DNA of 64,000 nt, from contig NZ_FNOG01000005.1 in assembly GCF_900106525.1 (NCBI RefSeq), positions 248,001 to 312,000 of the forward strand. The letters run 5' to 3'. The notes below the pieces were generated by a model. That model saw nothing but the letters and a program-made list of their open reading frames with translations. It was not told the DNA's origin and did not search any database. A program made the position numbers and the translations under genes. Shown piece by piece: positions 1 through 64,000 of this stretch; position 1 is the first letter of the stretch, and each line of letters opens with the position of its first letter. Source of the stretch: Lysobacter enzymogenes. Lineage in GTDB: Bacteria; Pseudomonadota; Gammaproteobacteria; Xanthomonadales; Xanthomonadaceae.

Positions 1-3000
1 GCGCCGGCCACCGACGAGAACAGCACGAACAGATCGAGCGCGTCGCCCGCCAAAGCCGCGTCCAGGTTGAGCGCGCCGGCGACCTTGGCCGCGAGCACCG
101 CCTCGATCTCGACGCCGCGCTTGTGCAGCGCATAGCCATCGCGATGGCTGCCGGCCGCGTGGATCAGGCCGTCGATGCGGCCGTGACGCGCACGCGCCGC
201 TTCGGCCAGCGCCTGCGCCTGGACGGCGTCGGCGACATCGGCTTGCACGTACACGGCGTCGCCGCCGAGTTCGCGCAAACGCTGCAGGCGCGCGCCTTGC
301 GCCGGGTCGGCCGGCGAACGCCCGCTCAGCACCAGACGCGCGTGATAGCGCAGCGCCAGGTGCTCGGCGAAGCGATAACCCAGGCCGCCAAGTCCGCCGG
401 TGATCAGATAGACGCCTTGCTGCTTGATCGCACCGTCACCGGCCGGCGGCGCGAACACCGCGGCATCGCGCACTTGCCGCACGGAGCGTTCATCGCGCGT
501 CAGGTAGCGCACTTCGCGCTCGCCGCCGGCCGGCTGCGCCAGTTCGGCGAGCACGCAGGCGGCGACCGCATCGGTTTCGGCGCCGGGCGCCAGGGCGAGG
601 GTCTTGCCCTGGATCTTCGGGTTCTCCAGCGCCAGGGTGCGCAGGTAGCCGGCGAAACCGGCGTTGAGCGCGGTAGCGGTGTGTTCGTCTTGCCGCTGCA
701 AGGCCAGCACGCGCAGCGCCCGGCTGTCGCCGTCGCCGAGCAGCGTCTTGAGCAGTCCGTGCAGCGCCAGCAGCGCTTGGGCCGGTTGCGCGGTATCGAT
801 GGCGTCCGCGCGCACCACTGCCTGCGGGCGGCGGCCTTGTTCGCTAAGGATCTGCAGCAGTTGCCGCGCTTGCGCTTCGTCGGCGAGGTCGGCGGCGAAC
901 AGATCGGCGTCGGGCTGGGCGAACGCCGCGCCTGCGGCGACCCGCACGACTTGATTCGAGCCGAGCCGGCGAACCAACGCTGCGCCTAGCGCCGGGTCGG
1001 AATCCAGCAACAACAGCGGGCCGCGCGGCGTTTCGGCCGATACCGGCAGCTCGCTGTCGCGCCATTGCAGGCGCAGCGACAGCGCATGCGCGGGTTCGGC
1101 CGGCGTTTGCATCGGCGACTGCGCCAGCGCGTGACCCGACGCGTCGATCGCCGCCGCTGGCAGCGACGCAGTGCGCACCCAGTAGCGCTCGCGCTGGAAC
1201 GGATAGGTCGGCAACGATACCCGCCGCCCCGCGCCGGGCGCGTGCAACCGCGCCCAGTCGATCTCGACGCCGGCGATCCACAGCCGCGCCAGCTTGTCCA
1301 GGTCGCGCCGCTGCAAGGTCATTTCCAGGTAGGCCGCGCCGGCCTCGCCCTCGATCAGCGCCGCGGCGGCCTGCGCCTGGCGCGGATTGCCCTGGAACAC
1401 CCCGTCTGTGTCGCCGTCCTGGCCCAGCCACTGCGCCAGACGCTCCGCCAGCATGGTCCGGTCGTCGACGATCAGCGCGAGCCGTTCGGCCAGCGGCGTG
1501 CGGCCGAGCTGGCTGGTATAGGCGATGTCGGCTAGCGTCTGCGCCGGCTCTCGGCGCAGGTGTTCGAGCATGCGCGCGCCGTACTCGCGCAGCGCGGTGC
1601 GGTCGCGCGCCGACAGCAGGAACAACTGCGGACCGGTCGCATCGTTGACCGGGCGCGCATCGTCGTATTCCTCGACGATCAGATGCGCGTTGGCGCCGCC
1701 GGCGCCGAACGAGCTGATGCCGGCGCGGCGCGGATGCGCGGTCGGCCGCGGCCATTCGCCCAGTTCGGTCTGGACCCTGAACGCGCTGGCGGCGAAGTCG
1801 ATATGCGGGTTGGCCGGCTGCGCGTGCAGCGACGGCGCCAGCTGTGCGTGCTGGAGCTGCAGCAACACCTTGCTCAACGCGGCGATGCCGGCGGCCGATT
1901 CGAGGTGGCCGATATTGGATTTGACCGAGCCGATCGCGCACGGCGTGCGCTGCGCATCGGCGCCCGCGGCGAGGCCGAAGCCCTTGCTCAGACCGGCGAT
2001 CTCGATCGGATCGCCGAGCGAGGTGCCGGTGCCGTGGGCCTCGACATAGCCGATGCTGTGCGCCGGCACGCCCGCCGCCGCCAGCGCTTCGCCGATCAGC
2101 TCGCCTTGCGCGAGCGGATTGGGCACGGTGTAGCCGTTGGTCTTGCCGCCGTGGTTGAGCGCGCCGCCGCGGATCAGCGCGAGGATCCGGTCGCCGTCAG
2201 CGAGCGCGCGCGACAGCGGCTTGAGCACGACTGCGCCGACGCCCTCGCCCGGCACGTAGCCGTCGCCGCCGGCACCGAAGCTGCGGCAGCGGCCGTCGCT
2301 GGCGGCGAAGTTGCCCTGGGCCAGGCTCAGGTACTTGTTCGGATGCGTGCACAGGTTGACGCCGCCGGCGATGGCCATCTCCACCGCGCTCTTGCGCACG
2401 TCCTCGGCAGCGAGCTGGATCGCGGTCAGCGACGATGAGCACATCGTGTCCAGGGCGAGACTGGGGCCGTGGAAGTCGAAGAAGTACGAGACCCGGTTGG
2501 CGATGGAGGCGAACGAAGAACTCGGCACGCCCTGCTCGCCGCCACCGACGCCGTAGAGCTCGTACTGGCCCCACATCGCGCCGACGTAGACGCCGACCTT
2601 GCGCCCGGCCACCGCTTCGCGGCGGTAACCGGCGTCTTCGAGCGCCTGCCACGCGGTTTCCAGGAACAGGCGTTCCTGCGGGTCCATCAACTCCGCTTCC
2701 TTCGGCGAGATGTTGAAGAACAGCGGGTCGAAGCGGTCGATCGCGTCGAGGAAGCCGCCCCACTTGCTGTAGGTCTTGCCGGGGCGGTTGCGCGCGGGAT
2801 CGAAGTAGCGGGCGTGGTCCCAGCGGTCGGCCAGGATTTCGCCGATGCAGTCGCGGCCCTGACGCAGGTTGTCCCAGAACGCGTGCAGGTCGTCGGCCTG
2901 CGGATAGCGGCCGGCGAGGCCGACGATGGCGACCGGTTCGACGGCGTTTGCGCGCGCGGAGGGCGCGGCCAGACGCATCCGGCTGCGCGGCGACGCGGCG

Positions 3001-64000: not shown

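Follow-up and report, generated by a model that had tools for sequence, protein, structure and literature searches.

A permuted trans-AT polyketide synthase cluster of Lysobacter enzymogenes with a predicted mid-line thiocysteine-lyase didomain and a trans-envelope gene block

The DNA analyzed here (the window) is a stretch of 64,000 nucleotides, C8:248001–312000, from contig C8 (NZ_FNOG01000005.1, 616 kb) of the 6.26 Mb Lysobacter enzymogenes genome GCF_900106525.1. It covers 64 kb of a polyketide synthase (PKS) cluster of ∼80 kb (C8 ∼235.4–317 kb), which overshoots the window by ∼12.6 kb on the left and 3–5 kb on the right. We read the region C8:80001–380000, with open reading frames (ORFs) called by codon composition and domains called with profiles made from the window's own proteins; all five PKS proteins were rechecked with Pfam. 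These five lie in or cross the window, all on the minus strand, and no PF00698 acyltransferase (AT) is listed in any of them (Pfam, E ≤ 0.001). Two discrete ATs are encoded left of the window. The combination of AT-less modules and discrete ATs identifies a trans-AT PKS, in agreement with a preliminary description of this DNA that had seen five AT-less PKS proteins on one strand. Transcription runs from right to left, in the order PKS 4, PKS 5, envelope block, ligase, FabG, acyl carrier protein (ACP), and PKS 1, 2, and 3. PKS 5 is followed by genes for a resistance-nodulation-division (RND)/MMPL transporter, a LolA-like protein, a DUF1302 protein, a glucose-methanol-choline (GMC) oxidoreductase, and two START-like proteins, and then by the ligase, FabG, and ACP. 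As the same description had noted, the protein carrying the thioesterase (TE) is encoded upstream of both the ligase/ACP and the PKS with an N-terminal ketosynthase (KS), PKS 1 (24543–40940), the only one of the five to begin in this way. Further left, outside the window, are genes for a metallo-β-lactamase-like protein, a 3-hydroxy-3-methylglutaryl-CoA synthase (HMGS), two enoyl-CoA hydratases (ECH), an ACP, a KS, an AT, a metallophosphoesterase, and a phosphopantetheinyl transferase, with the second AT on the opposite strand. The core features are listed here in window coordinates unless marked C8, with DH, KR, and MT standing for dehydratase, ketoreductase, and methyltransferase.

42062–43501, minus: AMP-forming acyl ligase, proposed to activate the starter (PF00501/PF13193)
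41296–42042, minus: FabG-like KR beside the loading ACP (PF13561)
41017–41283, minus: free-standing ACP, proposed loading ACP (PF00550)
24543–40940, minus: PKS 1, KS1-DH-KR-ACP / KS2-DH(partial)-ECHx3-ACP-ACP / KS3-ACPx3-DH / KS4-DH
10175–24538, minus: PKS 2, KR-ACP / KS5-DH(partial)-ECHx3-ACP-ACP / KS6-KR-MT-ACP / KS7
<1–10097 (C8:244511–258097), minus: PKS 3, DH-KR-ACP / KS8-DH-KR-ACP / KS9-KR-ACP / KS10-DH
55716–67004 (window part 55716–64000), minus: PKS 4, ACP-DUF2156-SH / KS11-DH-KR-ACP / KS12-KR
52022–55714, minus: PKS 5, ACP / KS13-ACP-TE
C8:235445–236398, plus: discrete AT
C8:238126–239259, minus: discrete AT

The ends of the PKS proteins are split modules. The C-terminal KS-DH of PKS 1 meets the KR-ACP of PKS 2, the last KS of PKS 2 meets the DH-KR-ACP of PKS 3, the KS-DH of PKS 3 meets the ACP-DUF2156-SH of PKS 4, and the KS-KR of PKS 4 meets the ACP of PKS 5. 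Because these ends are complementary, and joining them otherwise violates the usual order of domains or omits a protein, the sole full path predicted from the domains is ligase/ACP, PKS 1, PKS 2, PKS 3, PKS 4, PKS 5. In a KS-by-KS comparison, the gene order KS11 KS12 | KS13 | KS1–KS4 | KS5–KS7 | KS8–KS10 is also found in another Lysobacter (G005), Pseudoduganella flava (G020), Massilia atriviolacea (G036), and Caballeronia udeis (G021), and Chromobacterium vaccinii (G033) has the same block order as far as its contig end; the TE half precedes the core in all five. The seventh KS of G005, G036, and G021 matches KS7 non-reciprocally. Pseudoalteromonas luteoviolacea (G034:C12:18001–118000, L147–L151) has a similar core, but its SH half is encoded on the other strand and runs on into a four-carrier nonribosomal peptide synthetase (NRPS) with a TE. 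In G015 and G014, the SH half comes after the core, with the ligase, FabG, and a KS1-like KS behind it. Since the KS set is kept across these differing arrangements, the permuted order is one arrangement of a conserved set and not evidence of two lines. The complementary ends, and the same KS series in relatives that hold it in other orders or on opposite strands, support the earlier proposals of a permuted gene order and of a single chain that would start in the middle of the cluster, leave the window on the left, and return on the right.

The search of the flanks that the preliminary description had called for, directed at a second TE and a separate loading module, gave one TE-domain match in C8:230–320 kb and, among the genes called in that interval, no further loading set. 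The next TE is that of a separate 11-carrier NRPS upstream of the cluster (C8:328369–365474; window 80369–117474), made up of two proteins with 7 and 4 carriers and two C-terminal thioesterase stretches. The layout of this NRPS fits lysobactin, and from the residue list it may be the lysobactin NRPS. A division into two lines, with PKS 1, 2, and 3 making one product while PKS 4 and 5 make another or tail a chain built elsewhere, would fit the export block lying between the halves and the halves being on opposite strands in P. luteoviolacea. However, C8:235–317 kb holds a single TE match and a single loading set, and each half is incomplete alone, given that PKS 3 ends in KS-DH without an ACP and PKS 4 starts with an ACP. 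Both halves are, moreover, present in clusters read far enough (e.g., G005, G020, G036, G021, G034, G030, and G024). We therefore reject this division as improbable.

At the proposed start of the single line, a ligase homolog (E ≤ 1e-15) is found in six other clusters (G005, G036, G021, G015, G014, and G032) and a homolog of the loading ACP in eight (G005, G021, G036, G033, G020, G032, G014, and G015). At its proposed end, KS13 is probably non-elongating because the His of the HGTGT motif is replaced by Asn; in aligned columns, the equivalent residue is Asp or Asn in 14/14 other clusters with a KS13 match. KS10 retains the Cys-His-His triad. The usual TGGxGxLG and YAxAN motifs were not found in a pattern scan of the module 6 KR (window 13784–14428); this domain may be inactive or otherwise altered. 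Within the ligase gene, 516 bases (window 42347–42862) share ∼74% identity with a Bradyrhizobium plasmid gene for a fatty acid-CoA ligase (five records), the sole match obtained when plasmids were searched with the accessory block. An α/β hydrolase gene lies immediately upstream of PKS 4 (C8:315569–316945; window 67569–68945); its families are other than those of the cluster's TE.

The N terminus of PKS 4, at the right edge of the window and nearly all outside it (∼63.9–66.6 kb), comprises an ACP, a PF09924 domain (LPG synthase C-terminal), which we take to be the former DUF2156, and a PF01212 domain (β-eliminating lyase), here called SH. With PF09924 adjacent to PF01212 within a PKS, PKS 4 is a DUF-SH PKS. 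The didomain is uninterrupted and is 42%–44% identical to its four best Streptomyces/Kitasatospora plasmid matches. The best PDB sequence match of the SH domain is 9cen, “Polyketide Synthase Protein” (E 4e-66), and its alignment with tyrosine phenol-lyase spans what we take to be the position of the lysine that binds pyridoxal phosphate (PLP). DUF2156-PLP3 is the architecture of LnmJ (table in PMC3870968), and SH domains of leinamycin-type PKSs are described as thiocysteine lyases (PMC8479088). By homology, the ACP-DUF2156-SH unit is a predicted leinamycin-type thiocysteine-lyase didomain, here in mid-line. It may instead be vestigial or have another role, such as a β-lyase acting on a free amino acid, in a functional cluster with a sulfur-free product; function is demonstrated just for leinamycin-family domains in the text of PMC8479088 and extends here by homology. 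That reading is unlikely in view of an unbroken didomain that aligns across the PLP-lysine region and has relatives at 55 loci across several phyla.

The lines for leinamycin, guangnanmycin, and weishanmycin resemble this cluster in having a DUF-SH didomain, trans-ATs, HMGS β-branching, and in-line ECH. Their DUF-SH lies in the last module, next to the TE and with two ACPs (PMC7618002), whereas PKS 4 has it in mid-line, accompanied by a single ACP and followed by three further KS modules. The leinamycin family is defined by a terminal KS-ACP-ACP-DUF-SH-TE module in an eight-module NRPS/PKS hybrid (PMC7618002). Membership in it is ruled out here: the DUF-SH is not terminal, KS11, KS12, and KS13 come after it, and there are thirteen KS in all. 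Pfam lists no condensation or adenylation families for the five PKS proteins. Non-leinamycin DUF-SH modules are described as having one ACP and no TE (PMC7618002), as does the module of PKS 4, and three non-leinamycin families are among the 109 DUF-SH clusters reported in PMC8479088. Judged by its domains, the cluster belongs with these non-leinamycin DUF-SH PKSs.

A DUF-SH query matched 5/20 congeneric genomes and 5/99 sampled genomes of the family (own genome counted in both). The named collection holds at least 55 DUF-SH loci, a lower bound since they come from a pattern scan, in Pseudomonadota, Bacteroidota, Acidobacteriota, one metagenome-assembled genome (MAG) labeled Deltaproteobacteria, and one actinomycete. 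Among 56 SH-bearing ORFs from 54 loci, 25 read ACP-DUF2156-SH-KS-DH-KR-ACP-KS-DH and four have the KS-KR ending of the window. In a FastTree phylogeny of 42 DUF-SH sequences, hand-picked for spread and rooted on two leinamycin-type sequences, the window clusters with G005, Caballeronia, Paraburkholderia, and Chromobacterium (support 0.93), apart from the other Lysobacter type (G009, G015, and ISL-50) and from Bacteroidota. A clade of its own is formed by one deltaproteobacterial and two acidobacterial MAGs (L090, L093, and L100), in which the DUF-SH is directly followed by several ligase-carrier (NRPS-like) modules.

The preliminary description had not recognized the module string as that of any polyketide known to it. 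A lack of kinship with known systems is not supported, on two counts. F8TUA6 of Lysobacter sp. ATCC 53042, tabulated in 2013 as CP-DUF2156-PLP3-KS-KR-CP-KS-KR (PMC3870968, Table 2), has the listed order of PKS 4 save for a single DH; this is one tabulated protein, compared by its listed domains only. The predicted cluster that contains it also has an 11-residue NRPS (same table), and a Lysobacter genome-mining preprint (PMC11451712) mentions trans-AT PKS clusters, with no domain strings visible. Second, the second half of the line is homologous to a trans-AT PKS of Aquimarina sp. Aq78. Cuniculene is reported from this strain, and its cluster also from A. muelleri, Aq349, and EL33 (PMC9323603), with strain RhTr2 assigned to the same cluster family (PMC9860996). 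Aq78, A. muelleri, and RhTr2 are all among the DUF-SH loci (L055, L058, and L062). A search of Aq78 for KS (E ≤ 1e-40) gave 14 matches, one on contig C4 and 13 on C15, C21, and C32; we interpret these 13 as a single trans-AT cluster divided among contigs. Because the cuniculene-cluster strains covered all gave DUF-SH loci, and because the 13 KS can be read as one cluster, the DUF-SH line of Aq78 is very probably the cuniculene line.

KS7–KS13 are matched in Aq78 with 57%–73% KS identity, reciprocity being judged per contig piece. The likeness extends to an ACP-DUF2156-SH PKS, an ACP-KS0-ACP-TE protein, a DH-KR-ACP-KS-DH-KR-ACP-KS-KR-ACP-KS-DH PKS, a triple ECH, an HMGS, and RND, LolA, DUF1302, GMC, and START genes. 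In contrast, the early modules differ: the Aq78 pieces gave no reciprocal match for KS1, KS2, KS4, KS5, or KS6, and no ligase or FabG homolog was found in the stretches read. The DUF-SH of the window also lies in a Lysobacter/Burkholderiales clade, apart from that of Bacteroidota. Thus, despite the shared KS7–KS13 matches, DUF-SH, TE, and export genes, it is very unlikely that the product is cuniculene or a near-identical compound, and we reject this identity.

Two further features of the core concern β-branching and are listed below.

28287–31604, minus: Trp-flag ACPs (Ser+6 = W), the module 2 tandem at 31128–31604 and the module 3 triple at 28287–29039
31812–33692, minus: triple ECH of module 2, the first two copies degenerate and the third PksI/CurF-like
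17996–19765, minus: triple ECH of module 5

The cluster contains a free ACP, a free KS, an HMGS, two ECH, and Trp-flag ACPs, the set that marks HMGS β-branching. In eight compared clusters, Ser replaces Cys in the cassette KS (the alignment being one without the window's own cassette KS). Trp flags, as defined in PMC7618002, are present in 2/2 ACPs of module 2, 3/3 of module 3, and 1/2 of module 5; together with the HMGS cassette, they predict three β-branches. The third ECH of module 2 matches PksI (E 3e-47) and CurF (E 1e-37), and the first two give weak matches (best E 1e-10). Across 12 aligned triplets from six clusters, the SPYMxYGFTPGAGST-like stretch is found in the third copy and is missing from the first and second. 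Structure prediction for the triple ECH was of low confidence (pLDDT 59, pTM 0.34, two sequences). Tandem ECH is already known in cis-AT lines with an enoylreductase (PMC9582728).

Between the TE protein and the ligase lies the envelope block.

49294–51879 (likely Met start), minus: HAE3/MMPL-type RND inner-membrane transporter (PF03176, TIGR00921)
48306–49220, minus: LolA-like/DUF1329 protein, proposed periplasmic carrier (PF17131, PF07044)
46608–48305, minus: DUF1302 protein, proposed outer-membrane component (PF06980; by analogy with AmeA, PMC6394551)
45307–46581, minus: GMC/FAD oxidoreductase, proposed tailoring enzyme (PF00732)
43680–45232, minus: two START-like proteins (43680–44456 and 44453–45232), a START fold being predicted for the first

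This inventory agrees with the earlier claim of a trans-AT PKS with a dedicated envelope block. Neither START-like protein has a Pfam match. The AlphaFold model of the first (pLDDT 82), which has an N-terminal helix at residues 18–45, has as its best PDB match 3qsz, a Xanthomonas START lipid-transfer protein (E 1e-13); the second is 39% identical to the first. The RND protein scores 204 bits against TIGR00921 (HAE3), under the curated cut-off of 352. An HAE3 RND, a DUF1302 protein, and a LolA/DUF1329 protein in one gene block constitute an HAE3/Ame-type system, resembling AmeD/B/A of Castellaniella defragrans, where deletion of ameABCD reduces monoterpene tolerance (PMC6394551). Compared with AmeABCD, the block here adds START and GMC genes, and its substrate would be a polyketide.

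An RND homolog (at least 43% identity over most of its length) is present in 32/52 other DUF-SH genomes (11/18 and 21/34), all Pseudomonadota or Bacteroidota; one further DUF-SH genome has a partial match (39%). The RND gene lies within the DUF-SH cluster in 12/12 RND-bearing clusters read at length (G005, G009, G014, G015, G020, G024, G027, G028, G030, G031, G032, and G036), and among 20 congeneric genomes it occurs in the same five as the DUF-SH (own included) and in none of the other 15. Literature searches returned no title or abstract opening that ties DUF-SH PKSs to a START-RND-LolA-DUF1302 block, with the supplements of PMC8479088 on non-leinamycin families outside their scope.

Considered together, these data probably describe the middle of one trans-AT PKS cluster for a single long, multiply β-branched, sulfur-bearing polyketide, together with START carriers and an RND-based export route. 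In our model, the ligase and ACP would prime PKS 1 through its N-terminal KS1, and the chain would pass from PKS 1 to PKS 2, to PKS 3 past the left edge of the window, to PKS 4 past the right edge, and to PKS 5, with malonate supplied by the discrete ATs. The HMGS cassette and the in-line ECH of modules 2 and 5 would install β-branches in modules 2, 3, and 5, on the ACPs that carry a Trp flag. Module 9 has a KR but no DH, and module 10 a DH but no KR; the two would give the enoyl (α,β-unsaturated) chain needed at module 10 for thiocysteine addition, a pairing that is our guess. The DUF2156 domain would add thiocysteine to this chain, and the PLP-dependent SH domain would cleave it to leave a β-hydropersulfide or thiol. 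Three more KS-containing modules would follow the sulfur step, the non-elongating KS13 of PKS 5 passing the chain to the TE. The START proteins may then carry the hydrophobic product to the RND (HAE3)-LolA-like-DUF1302 route for export to the outer membrane or outside.

Several observations weigh against parts of this model. The product is here a prediction from the genes. KS10, with its intact catalytic triad, may catalyze elongation, which leaves the enoyl substrate of the DUF-SH an assumption. Clusters of the G015 type arrange the parts differently, and Massilia rhizosphaerae (G028) has no KS13 or TE match within the 100 kb read. No ligase or free FabG homolog (E ≤ 1e-15) was found in 100 kb of P. 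flava, so the proposed starter is not universal. A good RND match is missing in 20/52 DUF-SH genomes, including all eight from Acidobacteriota and the close relatives C. udeis, Paraburkholderia humisilvae, and C. vaccinii; in the Caballeronia and Chromobacterium stretches read, GMC and START genes are kept, with no LolA or DUF1302 seen. The envelope route is therefore not obligatory, though typical of some members of the family.

The locus is thus a real, single, permuted trans-AT line, a mid-line DUF-SH PKS related to the cuniculene system and of a kind known but little explored in several phyla. Added here are the full order, the predicted placing of the sulfur step in mid-line, the pair of modules with a triple ECH, and an export block that recurs. 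In the text of PMC8479088 and PMC7618002, thiocysteine-lyase chemistry is demonstrated only in leinamycin-type lines, in the last module; with a mid-line didomain in culturable Gram-negatives, it would become possible to test directly whether sulfur is inserted in mid-chain and how portable this step is. The association of many of these PKSs with a START-RND-LolA-DUF1302 block would likewise allow a genetic approach to the passage of a large hydrophobic polyketide across two membranes. More tentatively, and with considerable doubt, the Pseudomonadota and Bacteroidota clusters may share a conserved hydropersulfide-polyketide line coupled to a lipid-transfer and trans-envelope route, yielding a surface or outer-membrane sulfur lipid and not a released antibiotic, with the triple ECH (two degenerate copies and one active) as a single-chain stand-in for a crotonase trimer.

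Contig C8 carries other clusters. A second KS-rich PKS/NRPS-like cluster lies at C8:90145–136312 (L005–L007), with an AT-like protein, recognized by sequence motif only, at 86818–87696. Four more NRPS-like proteins, with 11 carrier domains, are encoded at C8:172120–209268 (L009–L011).

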